Made by a program: the position numbers and the translations under genes. The notes below the pieces were generated by a model. That model was not told the DNA's origin. It saw nothing but the letters and a program-made list of their open reading frames with translations, and made no database searches. From Enterobacter hormaechei subsp. xiangfangensis (GTDB lineage Bacteria > Pseudomonadota > Gammaproteobacteria > Enterobacterales > Enterobacteriaceae), in contig NZ_CP017183.1 of assembly GCF_001729785.1 (NCBI RefSeq), forward strand, positions 1,798,001 to 1,862,000: 64,000 bases of DNA, read 5' to 3'. Every line of letters begins with the position of its first letter. Within the stretch, counting starts at the first letter, position 1. This document shows positions 23,714 through 35,307 of the stretch, in pieces.

Positions 23714-24427
23714 TTATTCGAAGATATTTTCAGGCCATTGGGCCTTAACAACTTTGCCTATTATCCTGCAATTCTCATTACATTCAATCGCCTGATAGCG
23801 AGGGCTGGGGTTTAGAGGTTCAAGCCATGGCTTCCCATCTTCTCGAACATATTTTTTAAAAGTTACCTCTGAATCGTTGAAGATACCTGCAACACAGAAA
23901 TCACCAGGCTCAACATCCTGTTCTGGATCTATGAGTATAAGCATTCCCTCAGGAAAACTCGGTTTTACTCCTGGCGGGGCAGTCATCGAATGACCTGATA
24001 CCTCAAGCCAAAAGGCAGAATCACTGGCTTTAACAGTCGTTGAAACCCATTCCTTCGCGTCTCGTTCTGTGTATGTATTAACCGGGCAAAATGAGCCAGC
24101 CTGTACTTCGGTTAATAGCGGGTACTCATACACAGAGGAATGATTCCTTCCGTTCGCAATCGCCTCAAACATAGCTGATATCTCAGCTGCAAGGGATGGG
24201 CTGAAATCATCGACTTTTACTCCGAGAATTTTAGCGAACTGTGCAGCATGGGTAGCGTTGATAGCATTTGTGCCATTCAGTAGCTGAGCGACACCACTTT
24301 GTCCCATACCCATTTGTTCAGCCAAAAGCTCCTGTGAGAGCCCCAGCGCTTTTTTCTTGGACTCAAAGATAGCTTTCAGCCTGTTGGCATCGGCAATTTG
24401 TTCGGCGGTCAATGGTTTCTTTTTCAT
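23714..24427 (-). CDS. cI: CI-type repressor with S24 autoprotease domain
   Basis: The 237-residue prophage repressor has an N-terminal helix-turn-helix ([21 protein letters not shown], within about 28-50) followed by a LexA/CI peptidase domain. The cleavage site is A110-G111 in EVQAGSF, the catalytic serine is S147 in SGHSMTAP, and the lysine lies in TFKKYV at about 191. It should be RecA-sensitive, so the prophage is SOS-inducible. It is transcribed leftward from the oR region, between oL and oR as in lambda. The ATG at 24427 is preferred over 24433. Confidence 0.93.
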
Positions 24428-24438
24428 TCTCATAATTT

Positions 24439-29416: not shown

Positions 29417-30402
29417 GAGCCATACTGACGCCTGAAATTGCGCCGATGTCCGGGGTGGTTCTGTTCCGCCCTGGTACCGAACTGCTCTGGCTATTCCGTC
29501 AGGGAAGGGTAGTTATTGAGCCACCATCCGAAGCCATACAGCATCTGCCATCTGGATTAATCCCTGAAGCCCACCAGCCCCTGACTGACGATGCCAATAT
29601 GCAGGCTATTTTCGTTAACGAGAGGGTCATTCAGCGAGCCGGTGGATTGAGTAGCCTTGATGCCTGGCTGGAGAGAAAATTTGAATGCCAGTGGCCTCAC
29701 ACTGACTGGCATGCCAGTGACTTTACGGTAATGCGCCACGCTCCGGGGAGCATTCGTCTTTGCTGGTCGTGTGATAACCATTTACGTGAGCAAACCACTG
29801 AAAGACTGGCAGGAATTGCCATGCAGAACCTGGTAAAATGGCTGCTGGAAAGGGTAAATATTGATTTAGGTTTCAGCCCTGACCACACTCTTTCGCTTCC
29901 TGAGTTCTGCTGGTGGATGGTACGTAATGATCTGGCTGACCTTGTTCCTGAATCAGTGGCGAGTAAAGCACTCAGAATCAAGCCAGAACAGCACAGTTCA
30001 GTGATGAGGGAAAGCGACATTGTCCCGTCATTACCGGCTACGCAAATCTTTCAGGAGAAGGCAAAAAAGATAGTGGTGGTGAAGGTTGATCCTGAAACTC
30101 CGGAATCTTTCATGCTGAGGCCAAAGCGCCGACGCTGGGAAAACGAGAAATACACCCGCTGGGTGAAGTCGCAGCAGTGCTGTTGCTGTAATAACCCGGC
30201 AGACGACCCCCACCACCTGATAGGCCACGGGCAGGGTGGAATGGGTACTAAGGCGCATGACCTTTTTGTGATACCGCTGTGCAGAGCGCATCACGACGAG
30301 TTACACGCTGATCCTGTGGCATTTGAAGCGAAATACGGCGACCAGTTAACGCTGCTGTTTCGATTTTTAGATCGTGCGCTGGCAATCGGCGTATTAGCAT
30401 GA
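29413..30402 (+). CDS. DUF968 phage protein
   Basis: The 329-residue protein starts at GTG, overlapping the previous stop. The C-terminal DUF968 region contains a zinc-binding HNH-like arrangement: CCCCNNPADDPHHLIGHGQGG followed in part by HDLFVIPLCRAHHDELH. DUF968 genes lie between recombination genes and Q in many lambdoid phages and are thought to be nuclease-related. The N-terminal part is of unknown role. Confidence 0.8.
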   Translation: MRAILTPEIAPMSGVVLFRPGTELLWLFRQGRVVIEPPSEAIQHLPSGLIPEAHQPLTDDANMQAIFVNERVIQRAGGLSSLDAWLERKFECQWPHTDWHASDFTVMRHAPGSIRLCWSCDNHLREQTTERLAGIAMQNLVKWLLERVNIDLGFSPDHTLSLPEFCWWMVRNDLADLVPESVASKALRIKPEQHSSVMRESDIVPSLPATQIFQEKAKKIVVVKVDPETPESFMLRPKRRRWENEKYTRWVKSQQCCCCNNPADDPHHLIGHGQGGMGTKAHDLFVIPLCRAHHDELHADPVAFEAKYGDQLTLLFRFLDRALAIGVLA

Positions 30403-30416
30403 AAAGTGGAGAAAAC

Positions 30417-30782
30417 ATGCGTGACATTCAGAAGGTATTAGAGCGTTGGGGAGGTTGGGCCGCGAGCGATAGTTCTGGTGTGGATTACTCACCAATCGCA
30501 GCTGGTTTCAAAGGGCTTCTTTCTCAAACAAGTAAATCCCGCTTATCTTGCACTGACGACGACGCCCTGATTATAGAAGGGTGTTTGGCTCGGCTTCGAA
30601 AACGAAAACCATATGAGCATTCGCTCTTGGTTGCTCATTATTTATATGGCATCTCAAAACGGAAAATCGCGAAAGCGAGAAAGAAGGATGAGAAACTTAT
30701 TCGCATAGAGATACAGATGGCTGAAGGGTTTATTGAAGGTTGCCTTAGTATGCTAGAAATCAGACTGGAAATGGATGAGTAG
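30417..30782 (+). CDS. Q: Late antiterminator Q
   Basis: The 121-residue protein starts MRDIQKVLERWGGWAASDSS, a signature of the smaller Q family (Phage_antitermQ). A basic helical region (KRKIAKARKKDEKLIR) follows. It should bind at the late promoter and let RNA polymerase pass the terminators upstream of the lysis and structural genes. The ATG at 30417 is chosen for its GTGGAGAAAAC ribosome site. Confidence 0.88.
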   Translation: MRDIQKVLERWGGWAASDSSGVDYSPIAAGFKGLLSQTSKSRLSCTDDDALIIEGCLARLRKRKPYEHSLLVAHYLYGISKRKIAKARKKDEKLIRIEIQMAEGFIEGCLSMLEIRLEMDE

Positions 30783-30819
30783 GATAAAAACGCTTTATAC
30801 TTATTTGAAGGAAGCCTGA

Positions 30820-31332
30820 TTAATCGGGCTTCTTATTCATGCTGTCTAGAATATCTTTTTTCCTCTTTTCAGTCTCCGCTCTATGAATGAGAATACTTTT
30901 AAATCTTTGTGCTTCATCCATGTTCGCCTTTATAAAGAAAAAAGTATGTAATGAAGAAAGTACCAAGCCACCAGTTAAAGTGAAAAATAAAGTAAAATAT
31001 TTAGAGGTTGCATTTATGCTGAAGAATCCAATCGCAACAACGACTGCGGAAATAACATGGTAAGCTAATATTGTGCTAAGTCTTTTTCGTTTTAGGGATA
31101 TTATCGGCCTCAATCTCCTGAGTTCATCCGAGGTGAGTGATGGATGCTCGTCAGTCTCAGGGATTTTGAACATTGCTTGGATGCAATAGCTTGAGCAGAA
31201 TAACAATAATGTAAGTATAATCCATGGGGTAGGGGCAAGCTTTAAATTCGTATTGCACACTATGAAATAAAACAAAGTAGAACCTATGAAGAAGGCTAAA
31301 ATAAATTGACATAAGAATGATTTGTAACTCAT
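30820..31332 (-). CDS. Four-helix membrane protein of a two-gene cargo operon
   Basis: The 170-residue protein has four hydrophobic segments (about residues 8-25, 35-53, 85-105 and 112-132) and a charged C-terminal tail (HRAETEKRKKDILDSMNKK). It is the second gene of an A+T-rich pair on the strand opposite to the phage late genes. The stop codon lies within a GAAGCC hairpin that may terminate the transcript. Family is not recognised. The layout (soluble protein followed by a small four-helix membrane protein) recalls RexA-RexB or, with reversed order, Kiwa, but no sequence relation is claimed. Confidence 0.65.
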   Translation of the reverse strand: MSYKSFLCQFILAFFIGSTLFYFIVCNTNLKLAPTPWIILTLLLFCSSYCIQAMFKIPETDEHPSLTSDELRRLRPIISLKRKRLSTILAYHVISAVVVAIGFFSINATSKYFTLFFTLTGGLVLSSLHTFFFIKANMDEAQRFKSILIHRAETEKRKKDILDSMNKKPD

Positions 31333-31353
31333 TTTAACCTCCTTATAGCTGAA

Positions 31354-32421
31354 CTATTTAACTGCGACTTCACCTGCGCCAATCTTGGCGTGAAGCCATT
31401 TGTGCATCTGCAAATATAAATGATTTTCGTCTATTAGTCCATTATTATATTGTACGTTAATTGAACCAGATAGCTTCAAATCACCACCTTTAATGGTTCC
31501 GCCTCCCTTAAGAGTTATTTCAATGTCATCTTCATCCATGTTGCGTAAAGAGGTTGCTAGAGTATCCATTAGCAATTGCCCATCTTTATTAGTTTTTCTA
31601 AAGTAAGTAATTTCCAAGTTTACCTGTAGGTTTGATTCGTCCAAAGAGTCTTCTAGTTTTAAATCATCAAACCATTTTTCACCGAATGCTGCCTTTAATA
31701 TGTTCCCACCTTTACCAGTAGGCATGAATTTCATTTTTCTTACTTTTTGAACATTTCCCTCAGAAGGTATGTTCGGGGTTCGAACAATCTCAACTGAAGT
31801 ATCATTTTTACTTTTTATAGGGACGCTGCCCAAGTTAATTTTGCTTACCGGGTTTTTCTCAAGTTTTTGAATTGTTTCTTCAGTTGGTTTATCTTTCAGC
31901 ATTAAAATGCTGTCATCGGAAAATGAATTTCCAAAGCTATGAATAAGCCAATTAAGGTGAGTCTCTAAGTCTTTGGATCTCAGGGCGCTAGACTGTACGA
32001 TTATAAGGTGATTTTTAAGCACGCCAAAATATAATATAGAGTCAATGAATTCTCTTTTAATCTTCTCTTTGTGCTCATCTGAAACATTCTCATCAACTTC
32101 AAGCTTTATTTGTTCAGAAGTGATGGCATTTATATCGTAGAAACTTACGTCATCACTTATAGTCATTAGCGCTTGGCTTTTCCCTTGCTCAAATAGAATT
32201 AACTGACCAAACAAAATCGTCTGATAAGTACTACTTCTGTTTATTAGGCGATATCCACTCGAACTATCCGATGGAGTGATCTGCTCACGCCTCATGCCAA
32301 CCTTGGGAGCAGTCCCATTTGTAGAGATTATCGATTCCAGAATCGACTGAAGGTCAGCGTCGCAGTTAGCTATTGCAGCTCTTTTGTAGTGAATCGCTTT
32401 TTGACGATTTTGCCTTGACAT
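31354..32421 (-). CDS. Soluble 355-residue protein of unknown function, cargo operon
   Basis: No signal peptide or membrane segment is visible. The N-terminal region is basic (SRQNRQKAIHYKRAA). A middle part is alpha/beta-like (TILFGQLILFEQGKSQALM). A linker around residues 195-225 precedes a C-terminal region with glycine-rich strands (TLKGGGTIKGGDLKLSGSIN). Codon and base use are clearly more A+T-rich than in the flanking phage genes, indicating recent acquisition. It is 21 bp upstream of the membrane-protein gene. The region just upstream has an AATGATAAAAAATCATT palindrome (32506-32522), a possible operator. Confidence 0.65.
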   Translation of the reverse strand: MSRQNRQKAIHYKRAAIANCDADLQSILESIISTNGTAPKVGMRREQITPSDSSSGYRLINRSSTYQTILFGQLILFEQGKSQALMTISDDVSFYDINAITSEQIKLEVDENVSDEHKEKIKREFIDSILYFGVLKNHLIIVQSSALRSKDLETHLNWLIHSFGNSFSDDSILMLKDKPTEETIQKLEKNPVSKINLGSVPIKSKNDTSVEIVRTPNIPSEGNVQKVRKMKFMPTGKGGNILKAAFGEKWFDDLKLEDSLDESNLQVNLEITYFRKTNKDGQLLMDTLATSLRNMDEDDIEITLKGGGTIKGGDLKLSGSINVQYNNGLIDENHLYLQMHKWLHAKIGAGEVAVK

Positions 32422-32625
32422 CCATAATCCTTAATGATAACCAAATCAGTAACTACCAGCTCAAAGCCATAAGAACTGGCACCATTTCAAAAACGATATA
32501 AGAAAAATGATAAAAAATCATTAGCGCGGTCCGCATTTTATCATTTACTGTGTTAAGAGTGGTATCTACGCCACGGACTTAAAACGATTCGAAAATCTCG
32601 CTACAACGGGGTTTTGTCATTTTAG

Positions 32626-32649
32626 AGGCTGCCTAAAGGCGGCCTTTTT
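32626..32649 (+). terminator. Terminator upstream of the lysis region (tR'-like)
   Basis: AGGCTGCC pairs with GGCGGCCT (one G-U) and is followed by TTTTT. It lies between Q and the lysis genes, where Q-dependent readthrough is expected. Between 32422 and 32625 I see only the palindrome described with the cargo operon. Confidence 0.65.
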
Positions 32650-32904: not shown

Positions 32905-32981
32905 CCGCCATTAGCTCAACTGGAAAGAGCACGGAGCTTCTACCTCTGTGGTTCGGGGTTCGAATCCTCGATGGCGGACCA
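32905..32981 (+). tRNA. tRNA-Arg (anticodon UCU)
   Basis: A full cloverleaf can be drawn. The acceptor CCGCCAT pairs with ATGGCGG. D-stem GCTC pairs with GAGC, and the anticodon stem CGGAG pairs with CTCTG around loop CTTCTAC (anticodon TCT). The T-arm is CGGGG-TTCGAAT-CCTCG, the discriminator is A, and CCA is encoded. It reads AGA, a rare codon in enterobacteria. Lambdoid and Shiga-toxin phages often carry such tRNAs between Q and lysis genes. Confidence 0.93.
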
Positions 32982-34023: not shown

Positions 34024-34410
34024 ATGTCCGATCCATTTTCTGGGACGGGGCTGGCCGGTTTAGCTTTGACTGGAGCCAGTGTCTACGGCCTATTGACCGG
34101 AACTGACTACGGTGTTGTTTTTGGTGCATTTGCGGGCGCCGTATTTTACATAGCGACAGCGGCTGACCTGAGTGTGTTACGTCGCCTGGCATACTTCTTC
34201 GTGTCGTATATCGTCGGCATTCTTTCTTCGGGGCTGTTGGGTTCAAAACTCACATCCTGGACGGGGTACACCGAGAAGCCTCTGGATGCTATCGGTGCCG
34301 TAATAGCTTCTGCGTTAGCCGTTCAAATCCTTACGTTCCTGAACAAGCAGGACATCGGCTCGCTGGTGGCGCTGATAACGCGCCGGGGAGGTTCAGGTGG
34401 TACTAAATGA
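34024..34410 (+). CDS. Putative holin (Phage_holin_2_3-like)
   Basis: The 128-residue protein has three or four hydrophobic segments (about 8-25, 30-48, 55-75 and 88-108) and a charged C-terminus (ITRRGGSGGTK). It precedes another small membrane protein and the endolysin, the classic lysis cassette layout. It would form pores to trigger release of the endolysin. Confidence 0.75.
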   Translation: MSDPFSGTGLAGLALTGASVYGLLTGTDYGVVFGAFAGAVFYIATAADLSVLRRLAYFFVSYIVGILSSGLLGSKLTSWTGYTEKPLDAIGAVIASALAVQILTFLNKQDIGSLVALITRRGGSGGTK

Positions 34411-34678
34411 TCCAACAGCAACTATCAACGCGCTGCTCTGCGCCGGAGTTGTAATTACTCTGATGTTTTACCGCCGTGGTGATTCGCGGCATCGGCCATG
34501 GATTTCGCGTTTAGCCTGGCTGATTACCGTCACTTACAGCGCTGTACCGCTGGCGTACCTGTGTGGGATTTACCCGCATTCATCATGGGCCACCATTGCG
34601 GCCAATATCATATTCCTTTCAGTGCTGGTGGCCGTCAAAGGCAACGTTGCACGTCTGGTTGATCATCTGAGGCACTAA
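34397..34678 (+). CDS. Second holin-family membrane protein (Phage_holin_3_7-like)
   Basis: The 93-residue protein has three hydrophobic segments (about 8-25, 37-55 and 63-82) with SRLAWLITVTYSAVPLAYL as a family-like stretch. It starts at GTG within the end of the preceding gene and its stop overlaps the endolysin ATG (TAATG). It may be a holin or antiholin partner. Confidence 0.72.
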   Translation: MVLNDPTATINALLCAGVVITLMFYRRGDSRHRPWISRLAWLITVTYSAVPLAYLCGIYPHSSWATIAANIIFLSVLVAVKGNVARLVDHLRH

Positions 34679-35307
34679 TGGACAAAGCACAATTTCAGAA
34701 GGCGGCTGGTATAAGCGCCGGGTTAGCTGCGCGCTGGTTTCCACATATCGACGCCGCCATGAAGGAATACGGCATCACTGCACCGCTTGACCAGGCCATG
34801 TTTATTGCCCAGATGGGGCATGAAAGCACCAGGTTTACCCGTGTTGTGGAAAATCTGAATTACGCGGTTGAAAACCTGGTACCGACGTTCGGTAGCCACC
34901 GCATCACTCCACAGCAGGCCGCCGCACTTGGCAGAACGGCAGAGCACCCGGCTAATCAGAGAGCGATCGCCAATCTGGTATACGGTGGTGAGTGGGGAAA
35001 AGAACACCTGGGCAATCAGGTTGCCGGTGATGGATGGAAATATCGCGGTCGCGGCCTGAAGCAAATCACCGGGCTCAGCAATTATCGCAACTGTGGCCAC
35101 GCGCTGAAGCTGGACCTTGTAACCCAGCCTGAATTGCTTGAACAGGATGAATACGCCGCGCGCTCAGCTGCATGGTTCTTTGCCTCCCGCGGTTGCCTGC
35201 TTCATTCCGGCGACGTTGAGCGCGTGACACTATTAATCAATGGCGGCCGTAACGGGCTGGATAAACGCCGCGCGCTGTTTAACCTGGCGAAATCAGTTCT
35301 GTTGTGA
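34678..35307 (+). CDS. GH19 endolysin
   Basis: The 209-residue protein is a glycoside hydrolase family 19 (chitinase-like) lysozyme that cleaves peptidoglycan. The catalytic glutamates lie in FIAQMGHESTRF and GGEWGKEHLGN, and the family signature GWKYRGRGLKQITGLSNY is present. No signal peptide is present, so release depends on the holins. Length is typical for phage GH19 endolysins. Confidence 0.9.
   Translation: MDKAQFQKAAGISAGLAARWFPHIDAAMKEYGITAPLDQAMFIAQMGHESTRFTRVVENLNYAVENLVPTFGSHRITPQQAAALGRTAEHPANQRAIANLVYGGEWGKEHLGNQVAGDGWKYRGRGLKQITGLSNYRNCGHALKLDLVTQPELLEQDEYAARSAAWFFASRGCLLHSGDVERVTLLINGGRNGLDKRRALFNLAKSVLL

Follow-up and report, generated by a model that had tools for sequence, protein, structure and literature searches.

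A RexAB-like candidate phage-exclusion pair in the Q-lysis slot of an Enterobacter hormaechei prophage

The stretch of DNA analysed here, referred to as the window, comprises 64,000 nucleotides of Enterobacter hormaechei subsp. xiangfangensis (contig NZ_CP017183.1, positions 1,798,001 to 1,862,000) and carries, within a prophage, two minus-strand genes of 355 and 170 codons that lie 21 bp apart. Taken together, the structural predictions and comparative data suggest that these genes probably form a two-gene system of the RexAB type that is expressed in the lysogen and excludes phages. This reading rests on: the fold match of the predicted model of the soluble protein; the four-helix model of the membrane protein; the near-invariable pairing of the two genes; the co-variation of their products; and the movement of the pair as a unit between prophage sites.

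The gene pair and its exchangeable slot

The genes and the features that define their surroundings are as follows.

31354..32421, minus strand: gene of the putative sensor with predicted RexA fold, 355 amino acids (aa), phrog_3482
30820..31332, minus strand: gene of the predicted four-helix membrane partner, 170 aa, phrog_16807
32428..32432, minus strand: Shine-Dalgarno-like AAGGA preceding the first gene, read from the sequence
31338..31344, minus strand: Shine-Dalgarno-like AAGGAGG preceding the second gene, read from the sequence
30777..32501, no strand: exchangeable cargo segment, bounded by homology breaks against mEp390 and vB_EcoS-733R5
32502..32649, no strand: stretch common to phages with other cargo, at the outer edge of the exchangeable segment, 84% identical in mEp390
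30399..30782, plus strand: Q-like antiterminator, left flank of the slot, phrog_79
30811..30832, no strand: palindromic hairpin across the last stop codon, where the Q and membrane-protein genes converge
32505..32515 and 32536..32546: arms of the upstream inverted repeat, 11 of 11 pairs
34024..34410, plus strand: holin, first of the lysis genes, right flank
34678..35307: endolysin, in the right-hand lysis region

A sequence-only reading of this DNA had described two minus-strand genes, 21 bp apart, that interrupt the region between Q and the lysis genes and are richer in A+T than their surroundings. This description holds: both open reading frames (ORFs) are present, and they are flanked by Q, holin and endolysin. 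The G+C content of the pair is 36.6%, as against 51.4% for the window, and all 8 of the 1248 sliding windows of the pair's length that are as low in G+C overlap the pair. The hairpin that had been noted over the last stop codon is likewise present (14-nt arms, 93% complementarity); a terminator scan gave no terminator call there, and the annotation of mEp390 places terminators on both strands directly 3' of its Q gene. The palindrome reported upstream of the pair also exists, but it appears to be a feature of the slot more than of the pair, since it falls within the stretch shared with mEp390, which carries other cargo, and since across 12 aligned relatives a TGCGG-CCGC core is kept while the arms vary. 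That shared stretch is probably the Q/late-promoter region. Promoter-like matches occur at chance level, with 5 found and 6.3 expected.

Homology to mEp390 and vB_EcoS-733R5 ends at position 30776, six bases short of the Q gene's end, and restarts at 32502 in mEp390 and 32510 in vB_EcoS-733R5; for Escherichia coli 21AR0133 the corresponding positions are 30754 and 32522. As homology breaks off on either side, the pair and its leader constitute a single exchangeable cargo segment. In mEp390, the slot is occupied on the opposite strand by a protein with a TIR_2 domain (28.7 bits against a cut-off of 28; L140:1443-2261), which makes the slot look like a defence slot. In vB_EcoS-733R5, it holds a DUF6731 protein followed by a 147-aa four-helix protein, with a close copy in cdtI. 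E. coli 21AR0133 carries there, again on the opposite strand, a 257-aa protein without a Pfam family (L143:3707-4480), a candidate for another cargo system, and in the prophage Perceval the occupant is a porin. A tRNA-Arg (TCT) gene at 32905-32981 separates the cargo slot from the lysis genes; the matching stretch of Gifsy-1 likewise has a tRNA-Arg.

Predicted folds of the two proteins

The first protein belongs to phrog_3482, for which no function is annotated. When its predicted structure was compared by Foldseek, RexA was the top match (template modelling (TM) scores 0.24-0.32), which predicts a fold of the RexA/RdgC type for the soluble protein. No confident structural match to a metabolic or phage structural family, of the kind that would contradict a role in exclusion, came to light. 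The most conserved part of the protein is the stretch of residues 124-159 (EF..S.LYFG...N.....QS..L.....E.HL.WL). Other conserved positions are Y12, K13, R44, Y273-x-R275-x-T277, R293 and W342; those that are invariant or nearly so include Y12, K13, R44, the 124-159 block, R275, T277, R293 and W342.

The second protein belongs to phrog_16807, again without an annotated function. Its model contains four helices (residues 3-27, 35-62, 68-105 and 111-166), and hydropathy analysis yields three segments at a stricter threshold and four at a laxer one, so that the four-helix membrane protein first proposed from the sequence is borne out by the prediction. Conservation is strongest in the loop that joins helices 2 and 3 (E70-x-R72-R73-L74) and at F144 and R151, closer to the C-terminus. 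A threshold of at least 80% of 49 lineages retains E70, R72, R73, L74 and K81 in the loop, and F144, R151 and L162 near the C-terminus. If both termini are inside, these loop and C-terminal positions would be cytoplasmic, and they would then offer a natural contact for the sensor. The two alignments single out residues whose role in sensing, or in coupling to the membrane protein, merits a test. A fold search with the partner model returned generic helical bundles only, and the RexB profile PF15968 was not among its Pfam matches up to an expectation value (E) of 10. A match to UbiA (E 3.4e-4, 20.4 bits) was rejected as it lies under the cut-off of 34.2.

Both anatomy and fold bear on the comparison with Kiwa, in which KwaA and KwaB likewise combine a four-helix protein with a soluble one. 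Following this likeness, the window pair could be a Kiwa-like system with the roles reversed, in which a KwaA-like membrane protein senses infection and a DNA-binding KwaB-like protein is the effector. The general anatomy agrees with this. Against it, a PADLOC scan up to E 10 matched neither window protein to KwaA or KwaB, models of which we take PADLOC to include, and the fold match of the soluble protein is to RexA. The sole PADLOC hit of the partner is a weak one to E1-E2 (E 0.023). KwaB is also not among the fold-search matches listed for the sensor, an absence that is in itself no proof. The likeness to Kiwa drawn in the sequence-only reading therefore gains no support from the scan, and a reversed Kiwa-like system is very improbable.

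Several observations weigh against the RexAB-type reading. Both window proteins fall below every Pfam and NCBIfam cut-off. The sensor matches no Pfam family up to E 10, the RexA profile PF15969 included, and sequence searches of the PDB returned no RexA. In hhalign comparisons of the sensor with RexA, E is 0.37 for the single sequence and 0.17 for the alignment; with 10 control families added, RexA ranks among the controls when the window family is the query, and the window family comes second, narrowly ahead of the controls, when RexA is the query (20.0 against 18.8). The partner compared with the RexB set gives E 0.23. The sensor model itself is middling (predicted local distance difference test (pLDDT) 68.8, predicted TM score 0.64), its Foldseek scores are low, and the VIA match spans 155 of the 355 residues. 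The sensor is also acidic, with an isoelectric point (pI) of 6.3 as compared with 8.6 for lambda RexA, which counts against DNA sensing. The window pair does not lie behind cI, as a CI-like ORF, identified by eye, is found at 23714-24433. Lastly, the literature searched yielded no phage-exclusion phenotype for any member of the family.

The pair might be holin-like or host-takeover cargo with no part in defence, the match to RexA being a chance likeness of a poor model. The pLDDT of the model and the non-significant sequence comparison with RexA are consistent with this, as is the annotation of one relative of the membrane protein as 'holin-x'. We nevertheless give this explanation scarcely any credence.

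Pairing, mobility and expression

The survey of the pair covered 112 loci, many of them near-identical: 80 viral loci, 26 from GTDB genomes, 5 from phage records, and the window. In 108 of these, the gene directly after the sensor gene is homologous to the membrane gene. In the other four, the partner runs off the contig end (L032), the locus is truncated (L079 and L096), or a transmembrane-rich ORF recognized by eye was missed by the profile (L123). The pair is thus kept together as a two-gene unit with the soluble gene first, and the lack of co-occurrence that would have told against a joint system did not arise. Over 49 lineages, the correlation between the pairwise distances of the two proteins is 0.90, a value that none of 2000 permutations reaches and that shared ancestry alone would likewise be expected to make high.

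Grouping at 90% identity of 108 of the 112 sensor proteins (L039, L079, L088 and L096 were left out) gives 52 lineages. A Q gene on the opposite strand lies behind the pair in 16 of them, and a CI-like repressor on the same strand lies within 1.5 kb in front in 15. Another 19 are found elsewhere, including five loci with a repressor farther away, and 2 have no flank; the other sites adjoin head and tail genes. For 14 of the 15 lineages with a close repressor, the repressor ORF is 181-344 aa long; for the remaining one (L066) it is 124 aa. Among named phages, CI is followed by the pair in Perceval, Ab105-3phi, Ab1656-2 and phi1_092021, with one small gene in between in the three Acinetobacter phages; in SfIV the pair adjoins Q. 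On a quick tree with long branches, and so as an indication, the site labels require at least 11 changes.

The proximity to CI also bears on a different role. The pair could modulate the lysogeny switch: the RexA-fold protein would mainly bind DNA and shift the CI/Cro balance or tune induction, the membrane protein would restrain it, and exclusion would be secondary. Consistent with this, lambda RexA biases the bistable switch (PMC11077077), RdgC binds DNA (PMC11077077, section 19), and the 15 lineages with a repressor closely in front are placed accordingly. The pair, however, also occupies the Q slot and sites next to head or tail genes, the membrane gene is present at nearly every locus, and P. 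putida RexApp is reported to have no effect on its repressor promoter (PMC12894663, section 10). Modulation of the switch is therefore unlikely to be the main role.

Data from the prophage Perceval of E. coli LF82 suggest expression in a lysogen. In Table 1 of PMC9928086, CI stands 11-fold above local background, and LF82_152, a 'transmembrane protein', stands 81-fold above local background in LB. The Perceval record gives this name to a single gene, PERCE_42, which encodes the membrane partner and lies two genes away from CI; LF82_152 would accordingly be PERCE_42. The sensor gene lies between CI and the membrane gene and is absent from that table, a further point against the RexAB-type reading.

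These data also concern the direction of signalling. Rex-like systems of actinobacteriophages (Sbash gp30/31, CarolAnn gp44/43 and Butters gp30/31) resemble the window pair, as they are described, in combining a soluble and a membrane protein in temperate phages, and the membrane protein of Butters is four-pass, like the window partner. In mycobacteriophage Butters the soluble protein is described as the antiviral effector, which the membrane protein restrains (PMC7542560; PMC12894663, section 12). The window pair could work in the same way, and near-invariable pairing is compatible with either direction. Against this, Butters gp30 carries DUF4747 while the window sensor has no Pfam domain, in lambda and P. 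putida the role of effector is assigned to the membrane protein (PMC12894663), and the LF82 gene listed as strongly transcribed (PMC9928086) is the one matched here to the membrane gene. A reversal of roles is quite improbable.

RexAB as a possible branch of a broader class

How RexAB senses infection has been an open question for seventy years. A 2026 paper counts only five RexAB-like systems described (PMC12894663, section 12). For both lambda and P. putida, binding of DNA with no preference for sequence is described for the RexA protein, and growth arrest is attributed to the four-helix partner as effector; over-expression of RexApp triggers RexBpp and membrane damage in P. putida, and the two-hybrid tests reported there did not detect contact between RexApp and RexBpp (PMC12894663). 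The tagged RexApp of the P. putida system RexABpp (PP_5643-PP_5644) has a mass of 37.5 kDa (PMC12894663), and six members of the window family from named Pseudomonas contigs have 38.6-41.7 kDa without a tag.

By analogy, the simplest reading for the window pair is the same division of labour. The cytoplasmic 355-aa protein would act as a sensor, probably as a dimer that clamps DNA, or a DNA-protein intermediate, from an incoming phage. Once triggered, it would activate the 170-aa inner-membrane protein, probably through the ELRRL loop and the C-terminal tail. The membrane protein may then form an oligomeric pore or otherwise breach the membrane, which would stop growth and abort the infection.

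The likeness to lambda RexA-RexB (PF15969, PF15968) lies in the predicted RexA fold of the soluble first gene product, in the four-helix membrane second gene product, and in the CI-like repressor in front of the pair in part of the family. In contrast, neither window protein has detectable sequence homology to its lambda counterpart, the sensor has 355 aa as compared with the 279 aa of RexA, and the window copy lies in the Q-lysis slot. The proposal of a soluble sensor with a four-helix membrane effector, made from the sequence alone, is strengthened by the RexA fold match, the pairing, the CI-proximal lineages and the TIR cargo of the slot. The pair would represent a new variant of RexAB-type exclusion, RexAB-like by predicted fold and anatomy and outside the Pfam RexA and RexB families by sequence. 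Direct cloning of the pair into E. coli K-12 is possible.

The DUF6731 (PF20505) pairs of vB_EcoS-733R5 and cdtI resemble the window pair in slot, gene order and strand, and some DUF6731 pairs lie closely behind a CI-like repressor. They belong to a different sequence family, and their comparison with the window family is not significant. The DUF6731 gene loci are as follows.

L142:2392-3780: vB_EcoS-733R5
L149:2501-3889: cdtI
L151:1998-3282: AUS531phi
L153-L198: further loci

In 44 of 46 viral DUF6731 loci, the directly following ORF is predicted to contain three or more helices (40, and 4 in which it overlaps by more than 90 bases). Q lies behind in 37 of the 46, and 5 are preceded by a CI-like repressor at no more than 1.5 kb. 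In hhalign comparisons with 10 controls, the DUF6731 profile and the RexA alignment form the best pair, though a weak one (E 0.012). DUF6731 thus looks like a further RexAB-like branch or class. The annotation of the vB_EcoS-733R5 protein (L142:2839-3780) as 'portal (connector) protein' is apparently wrong. The term DUF6731 was not found in the literature searched, and searches with rex terms, DUF6731 and identifiers, in a coverage that leaves out most subscription papers, found no description of the window family.

We see an even chance that RexAB is one branch of a broad class in which RexA-fold sensors are combined with four-helix membrane effectors. This class would comprise at least three families without detectable homology (PF15969, phrog_3482 and DUF6731) that are exchanged for one another at two shared prophage sites, one shortly after cI and the other beside Q on the opposite strand. 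The window pair would be a second branch, mostly of gammaproteobacterial hosts with a few betaproteobacterial ones. Its 52 lineages could be sampled although the window proteins match no Pfam, NCBIfam or PADLOC family.

Relatives number 120 proteins for the first gene and 19 for the second; 80 of 179 viral relatives of the first gene were kept. The first gene is found on 26 GTDB contigs and in 9 of 50,697 phage records. It is rare: of the genomes sampled, 3 of 369 in the window's class and 6 of 295 in its family have it, the window's own included in each. Among these six, L132 was rejected as a chance match, being a ParBc_2 protein; L131 is very distant (E 1e-8, 18% identical) and has a transmembrane-rich follower; and in genome G650 the first gene appears as two neighbouring matches. 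PF15969, the RexA family, occurs at the same low frequency in these genomes (6 of 295, 5 above its cut-off). Two Enterobacteriaceae loci, L137 and L138, hold a very divergent PF15969 RexA that shares 19% identity with lambda RexA and has a neighbour with four helices.

Of 5426 complete E. coli genomes, 42 have a match to a Perceval-type pair, and in 41 the match covers at least 80% of the pair's length. In SfIV an IS1 lies at the membrane gene, which runs into the element (L002:3501-4324), and in E. coli T309.Ta3 an IS3 lies inside the stretch that matches the pair.
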